The translations under genes and the position numbers were made by a program. The notes beneath the pieces were generated by a model. That model ran no database searches. It saw nothing but the letters and a program-made list of their open reading frames with translations, and was not told where the DNA came from. Below, one piece after another: positions 15,752-63,241 of a stretch of 64,000 bases of DNA. This stretch comes from Paracyclopina nana (lineage: Eukaryota > Arthropoda > Copepoda > Cyclopoida > Cyclopettidae), in NCBI GenBank assembly GCA_019096065.1, contig JAGUCH010000001.1:558001-622000 (forward strand), in the 5' to 3' direction. The first letter of the stretch is position 1; each line of letters opens with the position of its first letter.

Positions 15752-15785
15752 GCCGGTCCCTTAGGACCGGCTGGCTCCGTTTTTT
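15752..15785 (-). promoter_or_regulatory. -1 ribosomal frameshift signal, gag/pol of copy A
   Basis: On the minus strand, the slippery heptamer A AAA AAC (15785-15779) is in the correct gag frame (CCA AAA AAC). A 7-nt spacer (15778-15772) follows, then a perfect 8-bp GC-rich hairpin GCCGGTCC/TAAG/GGACCGGC (15771-15752). The gag stop TAA lies in the hairpin loop. A -1 shift enters an open frame that runs directly into pol. Confidence 0.85.
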
Positions 15786-23621: not shown

Positions 23622-24644
23622 GGCATTGTATTTTTTATGGCATATCCTAGCTCTGTACTGGATAGGGCACAAAAGAGGATTACCTTGTACCTGTCATTTC
23701 CTGTGCTGCTAATGCAACAAGACCTGCTACAATCTGGCCTTCTTTCGCCTCTAATTGTACTTTCTTATCGTACTGCATTTCGAAGTAAGCCGTATTAAAA
23801 AACAATTAGATTGCCAGCAATTGTCGAGCATTGAAAGGGTGTGGAAATCTTTGGAAATCTCCAAAGGCACAATTGGACTTTGCTTGTTTACAAAACATTG
23901 CTGGTGTGAAAGCCGCTCAACTCTCCCCAATGAAATGAATCGATGCAAAATTCCTACTTTCCCAGCATCGTTTTGATAGATCCTAATACTTTCAACAGAG
24001 GGCTTTCTTTTGAAAAAAAATCTTCTTCGTCTGCATTGGGTGAATATCGATTTCTTCCTCCAAGAGAAGGAGAAGTTGTGCTCTGGTTGTGGGGGAAAAG
24101 AAGGGAAAAGTTACCGCCATTCAAATGCTCACCAAATTGTGTCCAATATTGCGTACCTTTTTCATAATCCGCATGGGTGATTCTGCTCACGCTCGGAATT
24201 TCATGCTATTTCATCGACCATGATCACGTTTGATCTTCCCAGTTTCAGATGTTGTAAGAGGAACTTTTACAATATTCAGTCCGCACACAAAAGTTAGCGG
24301 TTATTGTCAGAGCTTCTGTTTTGTACACAACTGCTTCTCAATTGGAGCTTTGCAGATTTTCAAAGATTCTCAGACCCGCACAACTTTGGCCAATCTCTAA
24401 AAATATGATTGTTTTTTTTTCAAGTAGCGACATTTGTCAAAATAAAGAAGGCGACAAAAAGAGGAAGAAAGAGCAAAATCTGAGGTCCCATGGGAGGCAT
24501 AAATTCAAGTGCAGCTCAACAACAAAAGTTGAGCCATTCAAAAGTTGGGCCAAAAACAACCAAGGTGCGTGATTTTTTAATGGAGGTCACTCCAAAGTAT
24601 TCTTAAGGCAGCTGGTTTGGGACTTAGGACATTTATGTGAGTCT
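23622..24644. other. Region upstream of SLC35F, no gene found
   Basis: Only short frames without splice support. It must hold the SLC35F promoter. It ends with GTCT (24641-24644), the target duplication of copy B. Confidence 0.5.
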
Positions 24645-24844
24645 TGTAGGGGTTCGAACACTCTGAGACCTACGCGTTACACCTTACTAACTTATAGCTT
24701 ATAAGACTCCATCTTAGTTGGAAGGATATATGTCGTCGAGCTGTTTGCTCGCGCATAGTCGTTTATTTACTGCTGTACAATTGTAGTGCTACCGCACGAG
24801 AAGGAGGCGAGAGCGCAGGTACGCAGGCTCGGGATCCTGCTACA
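24645..24844 (-). repeat. 3' LTR of copy B
   Basis: 200 bp, identical by eye to 34624-34823. The purine tract AATAGGGGGAAAT just before it on the minus strand (24845-24857) is a good plus-strand primer and overlaps the env stop codon (24853-24855). Confidence 0.93.
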
Positions 24845-27633: not shown

Positions 27634-30600
27634 TTAGTCCTGGAACACGTCGTCGCACGTTTCTGCGGTAGCTGCTGACGGTGCCGACGATGATGTTGAG
27701 TGAGAGGCCTCTTTGATTGGTGACGGAATGGTCGGTCGAAGAGGTAGTGGCCGCGGTTCTAGCGGTGGGAGCAGATACCTAGTTGCTTGATGCACGGTTG
27801 GCGGGTTGGCCTGCAAATGCTGCAGTGGCAACGTATCCTCGTCGGTCGTGCTTTTCCTGTCACCGCTGCGTGTTTTGGATCTAGACCGTTTGGTGACCGC
27901 CTCTGGTCCGCCTAAGAATCGCTCGGTGTCAGCCTGCAACATTTCTGCATTTGATCGTCGTTTCCTTTTCACCACTGTGCTAGTGCGCCTGGGCTCATCA
28001 TCGTCTGTTGGAGGGCTTGGCAGTCGCGGAGTATTCTGTGGAGACTCATCATCCGGTGAGGATGGGCGTTCATCCGGATCGGATGGATACCGGGTGCAGT
28101 CATATTCAGGTATCGTGGGGTCGTCGTTGAAGGCCGGGATTGGGTCATCTCGGGCTTCTGGGAACCCATATTCTCTGTCCGTCGGGGCCACCGCATATTC
28201 ATAAGGCACAGCGAGGTCATTAGCGGGCTCTGCCGCGACTTCATGTTGTGGGTCCGCGAGGAATTCGGCGGATTCGTCGCCTAACATGGACAGATCCAGA
28301 TCCTCAGCCGGTGGTGCAGTAGACACGTTGCCTTGATCTTGGTCAGGTGGGATGTACAACTTAAGGCGGTCTACCGAGACGACCTGGTTTCGAGCTCGAG
28401 CCCAGGACGGGTCTGGTGCTATTTCGTAAGTGAGCTCGTTCACTCGTTTTTCGATTGTCCAAGGTCCCGTCCAGAAGGTTTGTAGCTTTTTGGAGATGCG
28501 TGGAATAACCTTCGGGGTGAACAGCCACACTTTCTGTCCCACTATGAACGCACGCTTGTCCATGTGGTAGGCCCGTCGTTGTCGCTCGATCGAGTTTGAA
28601 ATGTTTTTCCGTGCCCATTCGTGCGCCAGTTGTATTCGCTCCTTCAGCTGCTTGGCGAATCGGCCTGCTTGCGTGGCCTTTGCTACAGCCGGCTGCGGGT
28701 CCCCAAAGATCAAGTCCAGGTTGGTCGACGGTTGGCGACCGAAAACCATTTCATATGGTGCCATGCCCGTGGAGCGGTTTTTGGTGGTACGGAGGACGAA
28801 GAGGGCGAAGGGAACGACCTCGGCCCAGTCCGCGTATCGACCCTTGACCATCTTCCTGATGAGCTCGTTGAGATCCCGATGCGCCCGTTCGACCGGGTTG
28901 CTGCGCGGAGGTTGTATGAAGGAGTAGTGGTGGCTTGTATCCCAAGGGCCGCGCATACTTCCCGCATGAGATGGGCCGTGAAGTGAGTCCCTTGATCGGT
29001 GTGTAGTCTCTCTGGAAGGCCAAATCTAGGGATGATTTCGGTCGTCAAAAACCGCACGGCTGTTTCAGCATCATTGGAACCGCACGGGAAAGCTTCGATC
29101 CATTTGGTGAAGACGCACTTAGCAGTGAACAAGTAGCGGTGACGGTTCGACGAAGGCTGGAACGGCCCTACGTAGTCGAGGCTCAAGATCTGGAACGGGT
29201 AGCCCGCGTAATGCGATTTGAGGGTGTGCAATTGATTTTTCTGGCCCGGCTTGGACCGCTGGCAAAGAAGGCAGGACTTGACGACTTCATCGGCCAGACG
29301 CGTCATGCCTGGGAAGTAGAAGTGCTGAGCTGCCCTGTGGACCACGGAGTCGCGCCCTTGGTGTCCCATGGTGTCGTGTACGTGGCGGAGGCTGGCTTCC
29401 TGCCACTGGCGGGGCACCACCAGTCGCGAGGTTTGCCTCTTCCGATCCAGCAAGCGAAGAGCACCTTGCCGATCCATGGTCATGGAACTTAGTTGTTCCA
29501 GTAACACGCGACCTCGAGGTGATGCGGCGTTGAGGTTCTCCTGCGAGGGCGATTGTTTCAGTCGGACTAGCTGTCTCAAAAGGACCAGGTCGTTGTCCTC
29601 CTCCTGGGCCGCAGCCCACGCTTCCGGCTTCGTGGGAATCAGCTTGAGATTAGCCACCCGGAAAAAGTCATCATCAGAGACGTCTGAGCTGATATGGTCA
29701 CCCCGCTGTGCCAGGTGGGGCGCTCGGCTGAGGGAATCTGCGTTGCCGTGCTTCACTCCCGCCCGGTGCACCACTTCGAAGTCGTAGTTGGAGATGGTGT
29801 CGAGCCATCGGCCCAGCATTCCCGTGGGCGCTTCCATGGAGCGGATCCAGAGGAGGGCCCGATGGTCAGTGCGCAGGATGAAACGGCGGTGTTGCAGGTA
29901 ATACTTGAATTGCTTGATGAAAATTATTACGGCCACCAGCTCGCCCTGATTAGCGGAATAGTTGCTTTGAGCGGCGTTCAGCTTCTTGGCGCCGTATAAG
30001 ATGACTCTTTCCTTGCGATCTTGGACTTGGGAAAGGACCCCCCCAACCGCCCTGTTTTCTTGTGAGAAATCCGTGTCCAGGATGAAGGGGTTAGGCGAGG
30101 AGAAGTCCGGATAGGCCAGTACAGGCGCAGAGGTCAGCCTCTTCTTGAGCTCGTCGAAAGCGGCCAGGAACTCCGGGCTGGGTTGGAAAACATGGTTGTC
30201 GCTGGTGCCGTCGTCCTTGGAGAGCTTGTCCGACAGGGGCGCCGCGACATGTTGGTATTTCTCAATGAAGGATCGGTAATAATTGGCCTTGCCAAGGAAG
30301 ATACGCAGCTGCTTCCTGGTGTTAGGCAAGGGCCATTCACGGATGAGGTCAATGTAGGCTGGCATGACCTCGAGGCCCTGAGGAGTGACAACATGCCCCA
30401 AGTATGTCACTCTGGATTGGAACAGGTGACATTTGGACGGCTTCAGCAGAAGTCCTGCTTTCTCGTGGGCCTGCAGCACCAGACGCAAGTTGCGGAGGTG
30501 GGACTCGAAGTCGGTTGAATGGACTAAGCAATCGTCGAGGTATGGCAGGGCAACGTCCCATGATATGCCCTCCAGAACCATCCTATTGAGGCGGCTGTAT

Positions 30601-31985
30601 GTCTTGGGCGCATTGGTGAGGCCGAAGGGCATCTTGAGGAAGGCGTATGAGCCGTCTCCTGTGGAAAAGGTGGTCTTCTCCACGTCCTCTGCCCGAATGG
30701 GGACCACGTTAAAGGCACCCACCGCGTCCAACGTTGAAAATACTGTGGAGCGGGCCAGTCGGCTGAGGTTGTCCCTGACGTCTCCGATGGGGTGTGAGTC
30801 GACTACAGTGGCCTTGTTGAGTTCCCTATAATCTACGCACCATCGCAGCGTGCCATCCTTCTTGCGGACGGGAACGAGAGGCGCGGACCACGGCGAAGTG
30901 ATGGGCGTGATGACTTCTTCATCCAACCACTTCTGGATCTGTTCCTTCAGGGACGCCTCGAGGTTCGGATTGATGGGTCGTCGACGGATGTTGATGGGCC
31001 TTGTCCCCGGCTTGAGGTCTATGGCGTGCTCGACCAGTGTGGTCTGCCCTGTGCGGCCGTCGAATGAAAAGGCTCCGACGTGGGCCGCGAGCAGGGTGGC
31101 GGCTTGAGCCAGCCGCTTGGGGTTCTCCTTGAGCATGTCGTTCTCGTTCAGCTTGAAGGTGTCAATGATAAGGTTGGCTTGCTCGTAACGGCGCTTGGCA
31201 TCGGACTCCGACTGCTTTCGGCTGGTACTATGGGTGGTGACCGGCGTGCGCACCGCGTGCACCGAGGGAGTAGCCTCGGTTCCACTGGGGCCCTCGTTTT
31301 CTTCGTAGACACGGAGGGTGCCGTAGGTCACTCCGCCCTTAAGGCGGAGCGGGTGATCCAGGGGGTTCAGCACCCCAACTGCCAGGCTGCCGCCGGCCCG
31401 CGGCTGGACTAATGCAATGTTCCAGGGTGCCAGCTGCGTCTGCGCGGCAAACTGGGGCTCTGCCTCGAGGGCAGCGGCCCGCGTGGACCCGTGGGGCCAG
31501 TGAGGGGCTACGGCGGCCACCAGGGTGACAGTGCGGGCTGGAATATTGACGGGCCGCAGAATCCGGATTTCGTACTCTTCCTGATCCTCAGCGGGTTGGA
31601 GAGCGCCCACCAGCGGGATCTGCTTCCCGTGCACGCGCAGGGTCCCTTGGGAGTGGAGCTGGTCGATGCGGTGGTGGCTCAAGAAGGGCCCTGACAAGTT
31701 GAAATCCATGGAGAGGTTCTGTACCACTGCGGGTCGGATAGAGAAGGAGTGAGGGTGATTACCCAGCTGCACTCGCAGTGGCTGCCGTAACTCCCCCAGG
31801 ACCTGGAGGCGTTGCTGTGCGTGGGCGGTGCCCACCGCGGGCATGTCGAGCATGGGCCGGAGACCGTGTGGAAGAACTCCAAGTCGGCGGGCAAAATTCT
31901 CGGAGATGCACGTGCGCCAGCTGTTGCCGCTATCGACCAGGGCCCGGGCTTTGATCTTGCCGATGCGGATCGGGACTTGGGCCAT
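27634..31985 (-). pseudogene. pol: Pol polyprotein of copy B, frame change in integrase
   Basis: From ATG 31985: protease (ALVDSGNSW), RT with YLDD near residue 480, RNase H (ILDTDFSQ, RTDHRALLW), integrase zinc finger (HDTMGHQ ... CLLCQRS), and the first two DDE residues in SLDYVGP and HTDQGTHF. Near 28910 the frame changes, just before the third catalytic residue (VERAHRDLN), which is in the second frame (28956-27634). That frame carries the rest of integrase, a chromodomain-like or linker region, and a long acidic Pro/Ser-rich tail ending with a block (NAEMLQADTERFLGG) also found in copy A. The -1 frame is open upstream into gag. A one-base indel is the simplest reading. Confidence 0.85.
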
Positions 31986-32042
31986 GAATTGTTGATGGCT
32001 GGCGATGTGGTCGAGAGCTGCTAATATGGAGGAAGGTGAGGG

Positions 32043-32084
32043 GACCCGGCTGGAGCTCTCTACAACCGGGTCGAGTCGTTTCCC
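32043..32084 (-). promoter_or_regulatory. -1 ribosomal frameshift signal, gag/pol of copy B
   Basis: Minus strand: slippery heptamer G GGA AAC (32084-32078) in gag frame (CCG GGA AAC), a 5-nt spacer GACTC, then stem GACCCGG (32072-32066) pairing with CCGGGTC (32049-32043); a T.G and a T-A pair extend it. The gag stop TAG (32062-32060) is in the loop. The -1 frame is open into pol. Confidence 0.8.
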
Positions 32085-33424
32085 GGTGCCGCATCATCCG
32101 AGGCCTCGGATTCGGGTTCTTCCTTGGGCTTGGCCTCGTAGATTTCATTGACTCGAGACCTTTTGTTGATCTTGCCCGACGAGCCTTGCCGATCGGAGGT
32201 CCTTTTCTGGTCGGAGGCGCGCCTTCGTCCTCGACCTCGGGAACTCTGTCCTCGAGCCGCCTGGTCCTTGTTGAGGGAAGCTGCGTGAGCCCACTTTTCG
32301 ATCTTGGAGTCGTAGCGGCCATTACGCTTGTCGGAGTCGAGGGTCCTGCATTCGCTCTTGCGATGACCCTTACGCTCGCAGTAGAAGCATACGATCGTGG
32401 AGTCGTCGCCGGCTCCGGGGATCATGGCGGCGATGCGGCCCTTACCTTGCCCCAACGACAACCAACATTCAGCTTGACTGGCAGCTTCCAAGGCGTCGGC
32501 CATGGTGGTGAATTTGTGCCCGGCGATGCCCATGACCACATCCTTGCGGTGAAGCTTGGTCACAAACATACGGATCAAGTCGGGGTAGGTCTCGACCTCC
32601 TTGGCCAGCTCAGGCTTGGCGCGGACGAAGATGCTGCGCAGTCTAGCGTGCCATTGGGGAATCCCTTCATCAGAGCGCTGATGGGCCGTTTCGAGGGCTA
32701 TACGGGCCACCTGGGACGACGTAGCGGTGACGAAGAACCTCTCATAGGCGTCGAGCAGGTGCTTGAGGGTGAAGCTTTCGTCCGTCAGGAGCAGATCTAC
32801 CTCATTGATAGTACGAAGTGCCGCGCCCACCATGGCATGCTTAACCTCCAGTTTCTTAGTGGCCTCGGTGTCCTTGGACCCCAAGAAGGTGGCCTCCACA
32901 TGAAGGCGGAAGGTGAGCCACTTGTCAGCTTCCGTGTCCTCGAACTTTTCGAGTTTGCGCTTGCGCCCGGAACGAGCAGCGGCGTTTTCAGCCTCGAGAC
33001 GGCGGGTGTTGATCTCCAGGAGCCGTAGCTCGGCCTCCTGTTTGCGGGCCTGTGCATCCGCCTGCCGCTGGGCCTCCATGGACTTCAGGAATTGCAGCAG
33101 CATCGACTGCGACAGCCCCTCAGTGTCGGGGTTGGCGCCAGCCGGGTCGGTCTCAGTTGGTTGGTTTGGCGGATCCGCCCTAGCCCCGGACCCGGGGCGA
33201 GGCCTGGCCCCAGTGGCGGCGGCCGATCCTTGGTTCCGCGGAAACCCAAGAGGGTCTAGGCCAGGACGGCTCCCGGCGGCGGCCCCGTGGGCCCCGAGGG
33301 TGCTTAAATCGGCTTCGAAACGTTGTTGGAGCCCGGCGGGGTGTGGCCCCAACTCGTGGCTGTCTGGGGACGCCCCGAGCTCCTCGTTTGCGGAGGTGTG
33401 AGGAGGAGATCGTTCGACAGGCAT
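32060..33424 (-). CDS. gag: Gag polyprotein of copy B
   Basis: Intact frame of 454 residues from ATG 33424. The first ~130 residues are Pro/Gly-rich, followed by an Arg/Glu-rich helix (QAEAELRLLE-type coiled region), a capsid-like part (residues ~160-330), one CCHC zinc knuckle (CFYCERKGHRKSEC), and a basic Arg/Ser tail. It forms the particle and binds RNA. The stop codon lies in the frameshift hairpin, so both Gag and Gag-Pol can be expected. Confidence 0.9.
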   Translation of the reverse strand: MPVERSPPHTSANEELGASPDSHELGPHPAGLQQRFEADLSTLGAHGAAAGSRPGLDPLGFPRNQGSAAATGARPRPGSGARADPPNQPTETDPAGANPDTEGLSQSMLLQFLKSMEAQRQADAQARKQEAELRLLEINTRRLEAENAAARSGRKRKLEKFEDTEADKWLTFRLHVEATFLGSKDTEATKKLEVKHAMVGAALRTINEVDLLLTDESFTLKHLLDAYERFFVTATSSQVARIALETAHQRSDEGIPQWHARLRSIFVRAKPELAKEVETYPDLIRMFVTKLHRKDVVMGIAGHKFTTMADALEAASQAECWLSLGQGKGRIAAMIPGAGDDSTIVCFYCERKGHRKSECRTLDSDKRNGRYDSKIEKWAHAASLNKDQAARGQSSRGRGRRRASDQKRTSDRQGSSGKINKRSRVNEIYEAKPKEEPESEASDDAAPGNDSTRL

Positions 33425-34602
33425 GATGAGCGAGCGACGGCTGCATAAGTGAAAGAGGTTGATTTCAATGCCCTAGCGTAGCAAATAGAGGAATAATTAC
33501 CAAGAATGGCGTAAAAAGCGCGAGAGCAGGGTGTAGCAACTTGGAGCAAATCCAAAGAACTGTGACTTTTCCCCTGGTACTCGATCTTTATAGCCTCTCT
33601 TGTCCCCTATGCAGCGGCCGCTCACCCGCAGCATCCGTTGTAATTCTCCGACCCTCGGGGATCGTTTTAGCGTAGCAATTTAGAATTGTTTGTGCGATCC
33701 GGTCCCCGATAGGAGATGTTTTACGATCGTTAACAAGAAGGTTGTTTGGAGCGAATGCTGCGCATTTGAGCGTGATGGCTTTTAGTGCGTTGACAGACAA
33801 TCCGCTAATTGCTCTGCACATGTGAAGCGCAACATGCAGCCCCCATAAAGGGGCCAGTTTATGGCTTGCTTGTACTGCTCTCTTGCTTTGATGCAGGATG
33901 GCCAATGCTTCTCTATTCACCACGGCAATTACGCGTGGAATGCATTGGAGCAGAGCAGCATTTAGTGCCTTGGATTGCAGTGATTTGGTCTCTGCCCTGA
34001 GGGGGGGTTGTGACCCGCCCGGGCGGCCGGAGGCCGCGGCCTCGGGCCAATGATCGTGCATGAGCGTGGCCGACCGGCAGTTCGCTGCGCGGTATTCCAA
34101 TTAAGTTGGGAGCATGAATGAGCGATATATTGATCAACTTAGTCACATTTGGTTTATTGGCATTCGCGATGCGTGTACAGTGACCGATTATTACTAGTGG
34201 CTTGTTGCATCCTTCTGCAGAGTGATGCGGCGCCGACTATGTAGCGCGCTTCCGGTGGTCCGGGGTAGGTGGCCTCTTCTCAAGGGCACCCCAGCCTCGA
34301 CGCGGAAACGGTCCTGGTGTTTGGAACCAGGGGGCACAGCATCCGCACTCGGTGTCTCGGGGGACGACGCGGGTGGCGGGATCTGCTGCCCAGGTTGCTC
34401 CCTCTCGTGAGCTTTTGGTAGCCTCAGCCACCGTAGCCTCAGCGAGGGTGAGGTTGATGTTCGTGGCATACTTTCAGCCGGAACGCACTAATATTGTTGC
34501 TTCCTATTCCCGGTCTTATTTGGTCGTTGTCGGAAACAACGACTTCCCCAGGGATGGAGGCGGGAGCGAAGGTGTCGCGTGTTTTGCGGTACTCGAAGAG
34601 TT
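33425..34602 (-). other. Long leader of copy B
   Basis: About 1.2 kb between primer site and gag. It contains a 170-codon frame (34100-33588) and a 91-codon frame (34469-34194) without recognisable domains; these may be upstream frames or chance. No repeat structure as in copy A was seen. Confidence 0.45.
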
Positions 34603-34623: not shown

Positions 34624-34823
34624 TGTAGGGGTTCGAACACTCTGAGACCTACGCGTTACACCTTACTAACTTATAGCTTATAAGACTCCATCTTAGTTGG
34701 AAGGATATATGTCGTCGAGCTGTTTGCTCGCGCATAGTCGTTTATTTACTGCTGTACAATTGTAGTGCTACCGCACGAGAAGGAGGCGAGAGCGCAGGTA
34801 CGCAGGCTCGGGATCCTGCTACA
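34624..34823 (-). repeat. 5' LTR of copy B
   Basis: 200 bp with TG..CA ends, identical by eye to 24645-24844; followed on the plus side by target duplication GTCT. Confidence 0.93.
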
Positions 34824-34827
34824 GTCT

Positions 34828-35766: not shown

Positions 35767-35839
35767 TGGAGGCGCCGGGTATCGATCCCGGTACCTCTCG
35801 CATGCTAAGCGAGCGCTCTACCATCTGAGCTACGCCCCC
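35767..35839 (-). tRNA. tRNA-Ala (anticodon AGC)
   Basis: Cloverleaf with acceptor GGGGGCG/CGCCTCC, D-arm GCTCAGATGGTAGAGC and anticodon loop TTAGCAT; T-loop is GGATCGATACC. One of four copies identical in this window. Confidence 0.95.
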
Positions 35840-38221: not shown

Positions 38222-38294
38222 GGGGGCGTAGCTCAGATGGTAGAGCGCTCGCTTAGCATGCGAGAGGTACCGGGATCGATACCCGGCGCCTCCA
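38222..38294 (+). tRNA. tRNA-Ala (anticodon AGC)
   Basis: Same 73 bases as the copy at 35767-35839, opposite strand. Flanking sequences differ. Confidence 0.95.
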
Positions 38295-53599: not shown

Positions 53600-54305
53600 C
53601 AAGGTAATGTGAGTCATAGTTACCCAAAGTGTACTTTCAAGCTAAGAAGAGCATTTTGAGAGAAAAAACTTGAGTTTGCGAGGATTTGTTTGGCTTCACC
53701 AAGAGCTGGAATCTAAATGAGCTGCAAATTGAGTTTAAGTGAGCAGAATCTGCTTCACATTCAACTTGGAAATGAAGAGGGCTATTTAAGAAGCTAAGCA
53801 CATCTCTCCTTTGAATGGGACAACTTGAAAAAACTTTTTTTCCCCCAGGAAATGGCTCCCATGATCATCACCATGCTAATAATATTAATTAAGTCAAGTA
53901 CAGCTGTGCTATAGTTGTGCTATATTGGAAAAGTGCCAAGCACCAACTAGCCTCTCCTCTCTGATGTGAGAAAATGCAGCCATTATTACTTCAGTCTAGA
54001 CTTGTCCATAATTGATAATATTGTAGTGAATTCCTCTCCTTCAAGAAGACTGCAGCAGCCAACTTGGTTCTTAATGCATCTATGCGGAAAATAGCTGGAA
54101 TCTGGATTTGGCCAATGCTGCAGTACCCAAATTTAAATGCTGGACTGGAAAGAAGTGCATTTGGTGCTTAAAAGCCCATCAACACTGCCAAGAAAAAGTC
54201 TACTTAATTCAATTGCACTTTCTTCAAGGCTCAGAGAGGCAAAAATGCACTTTTTAATAAATGCAAGAATAAATACAAAGTCAAAATGGCATTATTTTCA
54301 ACTAT
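53600..54305. other. Intergenic, nothing recognised
   Basis: No splice-supported gene. Ordinary AT-rich sequence between the minisatellite and a tRNA gene. Confidence 0.5.
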
Positions 54306-54378
54306 GGGGGCGTAGCTCAGATGGTAGAGCGCTCGCTTAGCATGCGAGAGGTACCGGGATCGATACCCGGCGCCTCCA
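54306..54378 (+). tRNA. tRNA-Ala (anticodon AGC)
   Basis: Same 73-base sequence as the copies at 35767, 38222 and 63169. Confidence 0.95.
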
Positions 54379-57300
54379 GAATTTTTTTCTGTTTTGTGAT
54401 AGAGAGTAAACTCATAAATCTTGAGCAAAAGAAAATTGGAAACTGAGAGAGAAAAAGGGAGCTGAAAGGCAAGAGGAAGAATCACTTTCAGTAAAGAATA
54501 CAGAAAGTGCCTGCAAAAATGTATCCAATGTCCAGAGAGGCTCAATAAATGCAAATTGAGTTTTATGGGACAACATGCTGTCGAGGTTAATGTCGTGAGA
54601 ATTTGTGTAGTAGCATAGATATCCAATTCTGCAAGCAGGAAGTTAAGGCCATCGACACTCAATACTGAAGAAGCCCGGATGTGACCTTCGAAGGGCCCAA
54701 AAAGCAACATTTGCCCATGGATATGTTCAATTTCCTCCAAATGGTGCAACCCCAATTTGCAAGATGGCCAAGGATAGTGATATGCAATATGTATCCATTG
54801 TCGATACAATTACACTCAAAGTCTTGTCAATGACGATACTTTTTGAAATACAGTTGGTGAATTAACAAGTCATCTCAGAAGCACTTGTGAAAGGTATGAC
54901 CAGATCAAAGCAAGCTACCTTGAGAAATCTGCCACAATGGAAAAACATCAGTGTGCAGTTACCTCAAATATCTTTGATCGATCATCTTCTTGACCACAAT
55001 GCTTTCCGATTTGTACCCGACATAATATAGATGAAGGCCATATGCATGATCCTGATGATGAATTCTTGGGAGGGAATGCATCATTATTAGGGTGGAACAT
55101 CAAGCCTATCTAATCATTATTTGGCAACTTTCCTTCGACATAGTACAATGAGACAAGGTCAGCATTTTGGCCCTCCATAAAATCCAATCTACTATCTCCT
55201 GATATGTCCTTAATATAGGGTCAAAAACTTGGCAAAGTTGACCTGCATAGATTCTCATTTGACGCCAATGGCACAAGGATAAGAAGTGTTATTGAAAAAC
55301 TGCTCACTGATGATAATCCAACTTGGCAGATTTATTCAGGTTGCTTGCTCCAATTAAAACACACCTTGCACAAGTGTAACTGTGGTGATTAGTCAGTTGC
55401 TCAGTTGTCTCACAAAAAGTGTCGTCTCTCACAAAACCAGCCAATTTGGGAGAAAATGTTCAAAATAGCATGGCAACACATAAAAGCTCTAGGGCATGTT
55501 TAACCCCTCATTTAGCCTTATAGTGCATATGGATGTTCTCAATTCAAAGCTTGCCAGTGAAGAATGGAATTTTCTCACCCATTCTTCCAGCTCAGACATG
55601 ATCAGACTTCCTTTGCTACATATAATGGATCAGCCCCACAAAAAAGTTGGTCTCAGCATTTTTAATGATTCCCATAATAGGGAAGAATGATGGTGGTGGT
55701 ATTGATCAAGACAAAACATAATTTGGTGGTAAATATCTGAGCAAATAAATAGTGAGCATAGCCGAGGCTCTACAAGTATTACCAGGATAAAAGCATCAAT
55801 CAAAAAATGTAATACAACCATGATAGTATTTGTGGCATGCTACAAATAAATTCCTTGGACTCTGCTCCTTACCTGGTTAGTATGAATCATTTATGGAGAA
55901 GTGCTGCACATTTCACTTTTTGGCACAACCAAGAAAATGCCTTGCTCTGGTTACCTCTAAACCATGACTGATACATTTATAAGGGAGAAGCTCTGAAGCG
56001 CTCCACTGTGGTGAGAGCTAGGAGAAGAAAATCCCAATTTGGGGAGATTCCCCCTCATATTGCAACAACTACATATACAAAAGAAAGCGCCTTTTTCAAG
56101 GCAAGTCAACCAACTTTTTTAGCCTTACTTTTTGCCTGGCTTGACAAGCTTCCAGTACCAAGATGTCACGCAGAGGGAATTGTCAACATCTTTTCAAATG
56201 TTAATTTGGGAAATGGGCAGTGCTACTTACTATTGCATAATCCCCTTGCCCAAGCAAGCTTAACTTTTAAAGCATCTTTAAAAGTGCTCAAAAAGCTGCA
56301 ATTCGATGCATTTTTCTGCTGCTTTTCTTGCATTCTTTAACTACCTAATGATTTCCATGCTCAAGGTAGGAAAGCATTTTCAGCTAGAAAAATGGTGACC
56401 AGTGCAGTGTGATTTCAACTTTTCCCTTTTTTGGCTGTATTACATCATCCATGTAGTCAAGCTCTGATTTGGAGCCTTTAGTCACCCAAAAAATGTCTTC
56501 GCTTATTTTGATTGATCACAGTATTGTGCTACCATATATGGCTACAGATCAGACATATTGTGCTATAGTCCTTTTGTGGTTGGTAGACCAAAACAAAAAA
56601 TGACCATGACTTCTTTACTAAGGGGAGAAAATAGGGATTCTTTATTGCCTTCTTAACTCACTTTTTAATGACTTCATTTCCCTTTGTTTGTTAGGTTAAT
56701 TAAGTGGTTGCCTCTGCAACTGTACCAGCAGGTCTTTATTACACATATGTATCTTCTGTATTTATACATAAATTCTCAACACAAATGTAGGTAGTGCTAC
56801 TGAAGTGGAATACAATGTCACATGGTTCTCCCATGGTAATCTGTATTAAGGAAACGTGGAATGTATCCATGGCTGTATCGGTGAAAGTTGGATACGTTTG
56901 CACGTATTGTCGCTTTCCCTAGTCCAATACATGTGCAGTGCCTATCTTACATACCAATGTCATCACATAGTGTGTGTGTTCTGCTATGCATATCTTGGTA
57001 ACAATATCAAGTGTTATATACCCTAAATGTACTTTAATAGCATAATTATTGCATTGATTGCCTAATCGCTTCAAAGCTGGGCCAGATGGCGCTACTTGCA
57101 ATATTCTGTTTTTGAAAAAAATCACCCTAAATCATCAGTAACAAAAAGAATAAAATAAACATTTTGTGTATTTATGTCTGGAAGAATACTTTCAAGTGAG
57201 CATCTCATACAAAAGTACAAAAACATGTCCAAATTGTCATCTTGTCCATTAAGAAAAGAATTGTAACAATGTCTTGATGCCCATTAGGCTCTGTTGTGAT

Positions 57301-63168: not shown

Positions 63169-63241
63169 GGGGGCGTAGCTCAGATGGTAGAGCGCTCGCT
63201 TAGCATGCGAGAGGTACCGGGATCGATACCCGGCGCCTCCA
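63169..63241 (+). tRNA. tRNA-Ala (anticodon AGC)
   Basis: Fourth identical 73-base copy. It ends 28 bases from the stop codon of the protease gene on the other strand. Confidence 0.95.

Follow-up and report, generated by a model that had tools for sequence, protein, structure and literature searches.

We report that the gag-pol junction of a long terminal repeat (LTR) retroelement in the genome of the copepod Paracyclopina nana very probably carries a −1 programmed ribosomal frameshift signal that joins gag to pol. The element, designated copy B, is of the Ty3/gypsy type (Metaviridae-like) and lies on the minus strand of a stretch of 64,000 nucleotides (nt) (assembly GCA_019096065.1, contig JAGUCH010000001.1, positions 558,001 to 622,000; hereafter the window, in whose own numbering all coordinates are given). 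A second element in the window, copy A, has a junction of the same architecture. The signal proposed consists of a slippery heptamer, a short spacer and a hairpin, and the silent sites of the coding sequence that overlaps the hairpin are conserved up to its last base, and no further.

The gag-pol junction of copy B

In copy B the gag frame (32060–33472, minus strand, stop to stop) and the pol frame (28710–32093, minus strand, −1 relative to gag and open from 32093) overlap by 34 nt. Within this overlap the gag frame contains a heptamer of the form X XXY YYZ, GGGAAAC, read as G GGA AAC (32078–32084; this and all other parts of the cassette are on the minus strand). The heptamer is followed by a spacer of 5 nt (32073–32077), the 5′ arm of a stem, S1 (32063–32072), a loop of 10 nt (32053–32062) that opens with the gag stop codon UAG (32062-32060), and the 3′ arm of S1 (32043–32052). 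The spacing falls within the range of about 5 to 9 nt between heptamer and stable structure that is given in the available text of PMC5009743. The initial annotation of this DNA had described the same heptamer and the same 5-nt spacer, and in both respects our reading of the sequence agrees with it; it had, however, put the stem at 7–9 base pairs (bp), and we count 10, since S1 (32072-32063 with 32052-32043) comprises the seven pairs noted earlier plus a U-G, a U-A and a G-C pair.

Neither the heptamer nor the hairpin of copy B looks like a product of chance. A scan of 3264 codon positions, taken from gag and pol of both elements (four frames), gave two in-frame heptamers of the form X XXY YYZ (Y = A or T, Z not G), each of them at a gag-pol junction; in copy B, neither gag nor pol has another in-frame slippery heptamer of this type besides the junction GGGAAAC. 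The 41-nt hairpin segment folds with −20.1 kcal/mol, a value equalled by none of 200 dinucleotide shuffles (z −3.8), and a longer segment of 81 nt is equalled by 1/200 (z −2.6). When the pol codons that follow the gag stop were re-coded synonymously, 43 of 2000 re-codings folded equally well. For copy A, none of 200 shuffles matched the hairpin, and the re-coding test was weak (205/2000 folding equally well).

Silent sites are conserved as far as the end of the hairpin

Downstream of the gag stop the sequence encodes pol only, whereas the 5′ arm and the heptamer are encoded in both frames. Pol codons of 15 representatives of the B lineage were aligned from the heptamer, and pairs of sequences that share a degenerate amino acid were scored for a difference in codon; two of 17 sequences were omitted, namely L066, and L131 with its pol interrupted from about codon 44 onward (loci are designated by an L and a number). 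In codons 9–13 (32057-32043), which cover the end of the loop and the 3′ arm, not one of 281 comparisons showed a synonymous difference. In codons 14–24 the count was 436/924 and from codon 25 onward 3114/6652, about 47% beyond the cassette, and none of 81 downstream five-codon windows reached the level of codons 9–13. Codons 4–13 form ten consecutive columns without silent variation; from codon 14 onward such columns number 6 of 92 informative ones, with a longest run of two. Silent constraint thus extends to the final base of the stem and stops there. Constraint on the protein does not explain codons 9–13, because the amino acids there do vary, and the conservation accordingly exceeds what coding requires. 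In the A lineage, six loci gave 0/45 synonymous differences in the 3′ arm versus 272/854 in codons 21–98, the latter figure coming from an ungapped comparison in which L114 and L115 lose register late, possibly inflating it.

Covariation of the stem over many copies had been put forward in the initial annotation as a check on the frameshift reading. For this we aligned 31 distinct cassettes of 90 nt, leaving out L084 and L134, which are shifted by indels, and adding L078, in which the heptamer is changed. S1 is paired in 93.2% of 310 cells, as against 21–62% when the pairing is slid. No S1 pair is altered on both sides relative to its own commonest form, and the check neither supported nor refuted the reading, as there was no excess of covariation over shuffles. 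Covariation is uninformative here because the stem hardly varies. On these alignments, silent sites are a better indicator of purifying selection at the RNA level than covariation is.

Several results weigh against the frameshift reading, or limit the evidence for it. The covariation score of S1 was reached by 117 of 500 shuffles. Pair 20-35 is U-G in 13 of the 31 cassettes, U-A in 3, C-G in 2 and U-C in 13, and it is because of this U-C that the outer stem measures only 7 bp in the clade of L048 and L049. The same clade taken alone (six rows, including L066) gives a weak silent-site contrast, with 5/70 differences, a level that 2 of 81 windows also reach. L066, which stands outside the 15 representatives, differs silently at a single site of the 3′ arm, where a G-U pair is retained. 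Moreover, the representatives are related to one another, so that the pair counts given above are not independent events, and the contrast in the A lineage is small and weaker near the stem (23/128 in codons 11–20). Finally, the hairpin is less distinct from shuffles in relatives of copy B, being equalled by 13/200 for L047, 10/200 for L064, 58/200 for L049 and 84/200 for L045, in the last of which two S1 pairs are broken.

The cassette among related elements of the genome

The assembly that contains the window (92 Mb, 10 contigs) was searched for related elements. Since the searches scored the best candidates only (40/127 and 94/507), the copy numbers obtained from similarity are lower bounds. 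A pattern describing the GGGAAAC cassette, GGGAAACGACNNNACCCGG, has 97 exact matches in the genome and its reverse has none; a protease-reverse transcriptase (RT) query from pol, which excludes the cassette, has at least 97 matches. Many copies are near-identical. We retrieved 40 diverged matches (L045–L084; 63–81% identity over the matched part). Of these 40 loci, which were identified by protein similarity beyond the cassette itself, 36 keep GGGAAACGAC, the exceptions being L065, L068, L078 and L080; the gag stop is UAG in 35 of the 36. The heptamer is also missing from two closer copies, L033 and L039. Overall, it is kept in 74 of 80 loci found by similarity, with both frames open around it in 66. 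Retention is quoted from these 80 loci, or from the 40 found by protein, because the remaining 20 of the 100 B-lineage loci (L127–L146) had been picked by the heptamer pattern itself.

Copy A and copy B are sisters in an RT tree of eight rows (support 100/99). The heptamer of copy A, AAAAAAC (15779–15785, minus strand), is read as A AAA AAC and is followed, after a spacer of 7 nt, by a hairpin of 8 bp (15752–15771, minus strand) whose UAAG loop contains the gag stop. In the A lineage the heptamer has six A in 27 of 33 loci and seven A in 2 of 33. The pattern of the copy A cassette, which also matches the copies with seven A, has 51 exact matches in the genome and none when reversed. In two further lineages, C and D (25 loci: L118-L121, L124 and L147-L166), the junction reads T TTA AAC UGG stop; the hairpin lies 3′ of the stop, and pol follows in the −1 frame. 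Here a pattern of the UUUAAAC cassette has 72 exact matches and none reversed. These related lineages thus differ from B both in the heptamer (A AAA AAC or U UUA AAC) and in their stems. According to the available text of PMC5009743, GGGAAAC, AAAAAAC and UUUAAAC are, with G_GGU_UUU, among the shiftiest heptamers for mammalian ribosomes.

Checked on the sequence, the two junctions of the window bear out the earlier claim that copy B repeats the architecture of copy A with a changed heptamer and a changed stem. Both copies have the gag stop in the loop, as described; the UUUAAAC lineages differ here, with the stop in the spacer. The broader proposal, that selection acts on a −1 frameshift cassette and preserves its layout through changes of sequence, gains support as well, though not from two copies alone: it is backed by silent-site conservation confined to the cassette, by 97, 51 and 72 pattern matches with none for the reversed patterns, and by the position of A and B as sisters in the RT tree.

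A few loci depart from these junctions. Natural indels in the heptamer were seen in L092/L106, L104, L068 and L033, and consist of seven A in A copies and of an extra A or the loss of GG in B copies. At the L106 site a frame of 1742 codons is open, versus 1443 in many others, and is taken as gag and pol in one frame. In a further gypsy-type lineage, both loci examined, L122 and L123, carry a UGA, in frame and followed by C, where gag meets pol, possibly a site of stop-codon readthrough; in L123 a second in-frame stop interrupts pol further on. In L125 and L126, which are related to these two, the junction is open throughout.

Is the stimulator a pseudoknot?

The loop of copy B (32060-32054, GAGAGCU) could pair with a segment further downstream (32019-32013, AGCUCUC, minus strand) in a second stem, S2, of 7 bp. 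The stimulator would then be an H-type pseudoknot with a spacer of 5, an S1 of 10 bp and crossing loops of 2 nt and 23 nt, a proposal that we regard as rather unlikely. The match is perfect in copy B, which could still form S2, and seven or more Watson-Crick pairs arise in only 1.1% of 20000 synonymous re-codings of downstream pol (2.6% with G-U allowed). Except in the L048/L049 clade, the partner is for the most part retained, with 6–7 pairs, and where the loop base is G the pairing is G-C in L064 and G-U in L131. There is also precedent, in that PMC3835772, as far as its available part goes, tabulates pseudoknots about as large at GGGAAAC sites, such as that of caprine arthritis encephalitis virus (CAEV), which we read as spacer 4, S1 10 and S2 7.

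However, the pairing of S2 is disrupted in the L048/L049 clade, which is the most frequent of the diverged clades sampled. The silent sites of its 3′ arm vary (56, 63 and 63 of 105 for codons 21, 22 and 23 in the 15 representatives), and even when that clade is set aside, leaving ten representatives, 18/90 comparisons at codons 22-23 show a difference, a level to which 10 of 76 two-codon windows also fall. The covariation score for S2 was reached by all 500 of 500 shuffles. A conserved second stem was therefore not found across the lineage. On re-coding, silent sites and pair counts together, the far partner at 32019-32013 is unsupported as a general feature, and so is a nearer partner, GAGGG with CCCUC, whose pairs were counted in the cassettes.

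The silent sites downstream of the stem hold one oddity. Pol codon 18 (32030-32028, minus strand) is CTC in 13 of the 15 representatives, with no other Leu codon in use (0/78 pairs), while its neighbours vary; in the copy B of the window it is TCC. In the L048/L049 clade this codon lies within CCCUC, which could pair with the loop sequence GAGGG.

Proposed mechanism and alternative explanations

In our reading, the majority of ribosomes would translate gag and terminate at UAG. With the P and A sites on GGA AAC, the hairpin 5 nt ahead would resist unwinding, and in a minority of ribosomes both tRNAs would slip in tandem one base back, from GGA AAC to GGG AAA. Ribosomes so shifted would enter pol and produce a Gag-Pol fusion as the minor product, by which the ratio of Gag to Gag-Pol would be set. 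These slippage steps are the established ones of −1 frameshifting. For copy B we infer that slippage occurs, along with its efficiency and tandem details, and that a plain hairpin and not a pseudoknot acts as the stimulator.

The conservation could instead reflect protein coding in two frames together with recent common descent, the heptamer and the stem being accidental. This would suit the 5′ arm and the heptamer, which are coded in both frames, and also the many near-identical copies, but for the 3′ arm pol is the sole coding frame, and there amino acids change (codons 9–13) while silent sites do not. Nor would it account for silent sites immediately beyond the 3′ arm that differ in about half of the comparisons, or for the same geometry in related lineages, and we consider it very unlikely. 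Less probable still is that the hairpin serves another role of the RNA, such as dimerisation or packaging, with the overlap bridged in some other way. The loop of copy B does contain a palindrome of 6 nt, GAGCUC, which would fit such a role; it is lost, however, in L047-like and L049-like relatives in which heptamer and stem persist, and a dimerisation palindrome was rejected on this ground. The position of the hairpin, 5 nt past an in-frame slippery heptamer, would also be left unexplained.

We give the least credence to the possibility that Gag-Pol arises by transcriptional slippage and not by ribosomal frameshifting. The six consecutive A of copy A form a run prone to changes in length, as the genomic copies with seven A (2/33 loci of the A lineage) indicate. 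GGGAAAC, on the other hand, has no long homopolymer, and the hairpin is conserved at the spacing expected for ribosomes. A −1 ribosomal frameshift signal remains the reading that we favour for the cassette of copy B.

A wider reading of the genome is tentative, and taken as a whole we would not expect all of it to hold. Within one animal genome, radiating gypsy-type lineages may have swapped the heptamer (GGGAAAC, AAAAAAC, UUUAAAC) and on each occasion built the stimulator anew, with other lineages having fused frames or possibly using UGA readthrough; in the B lineage S2 may have moved from the far to the near partner (GAGGG/CCCUC, in the L048/L049 clade), with stem 1 and the heptamer frozen. 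If true, this would amount to a natural evolution experiment in recoding. With dozens to about 100 genomic copies per lineage, silent sites can delimit a gag-pol frameshift element to nearly single-base precision with no experiment, and the different heptamers in related lineages of one genome make it testable how a signal is replaced without losing the ratio of Gag to Gag-Pol.

The elements and the other genes of the window

Copy B is bounded by identical LTRs of 200 nt (TGT...ACA; 5′ LTR 34624–34823 and 3′ LTR 24645–24844, both minus strand), and is flanked by a target site duplication of 4 bp, GTCT (34824–34827 and 24641-24644). The Pfam domains of pol follow the order RVT_1, RT_RNaseH, Integrase_H2C2 and rve, that is, RT, RNase H and integrase in the order of Ty3/gypsy elements; with the LTRs and the short target duplication, this order places copy B in that group. 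Its pol ends prematurely, at 1127 amino acids, whereas 1485 are open in several other copies, and presumably includes a protease part; in copy A a match to Asp_protease_2 was found below the Pfam threshold. The gag translation shows a zinc-knuckle-like CX2CX4HX4C motif and a sub-threshold Pfam match to PNMA. A protein search with gag gave no match at E ≤ 0.001 among 7995 scored candidates, and one with pol matched 219 proteins out of 7999 candidates scored; in the list of the best 120, the top full-length matches are 35–42% identical.

Both elements have an env-like third gene, present as two overlapping pieces (27361-24856 in copy B and 11461-9015 in copy A, minus strand), which matches the Pfam family PF24664, Monjiviricetes_fusion (1e-56 and 6e-13 in B; 2e-40 and 2e-27 in A). 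This gene deserves attention because the available part of PMC10084718 reports no clear evidence for the capture of Jingchuvirales glycoproteins by Gypsy elements. Elsewhere, four tRNA-Ala(AGC) genes are scattered over the window (35767-35839, minus strand; 38222-38294; 54305-54379; 63169-63241), and the frame at 383-1288 matches galactose-3-O-sulfotransferase, which hints at an animal host.

Comparison with known frameshift systems

Signals of this kind are already known, and copy B would be a further member. One close parallel is PEG10/Edr, which, in the available text of PMC2800197, shares with copy B the heptamer GGGAAAC and a spacer of 5 nt, and likewise has a protease motif after a gypsy-derived gag. 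The stimulator of PEG10 is described there as a pseudoknot, whereas for copy B a hairpin alone is supported. The Edr/PEG10 model of Rfam, RF01090, was the sole Rfam match in a stretch of 301 bases and spans the cassette (32084-32037), but at 17.5 bits (E 0.91, chance level) it stays below the gathering threshold of 45 bits, and for this reason we do not file the cassette under that model. There was no Rfam match at E ≤ 1 at copy A or in L045, L047, L049, L078, L118 or L119.

The GGGAAAC sites of Mason-Pfizer monkey virus (MPMV), simian retrovirus 1 (SRV-1), feline immunodeficiency virus (FIV) and CAEV resemble copy B in heptamer, short spacer and downstream structure, as far as the available part of PMC3835772 goes; these retroviral sites are tabulated there with pseudoknots, whereas in the B lineage a second stem is not conserved throughout. 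Among animal LTR elements, a −1 relation of gag and pol was found in 28 of 51 in a survey of 2003, as recounted in PMC5009743, and from the gag-pol sites treated in the available text of that paper copy B differs in nothing essential. What the present case adds to them is the occurrence of three heptamers in related lineages of one genome, at a divergence that allows the silent sites to be tested.
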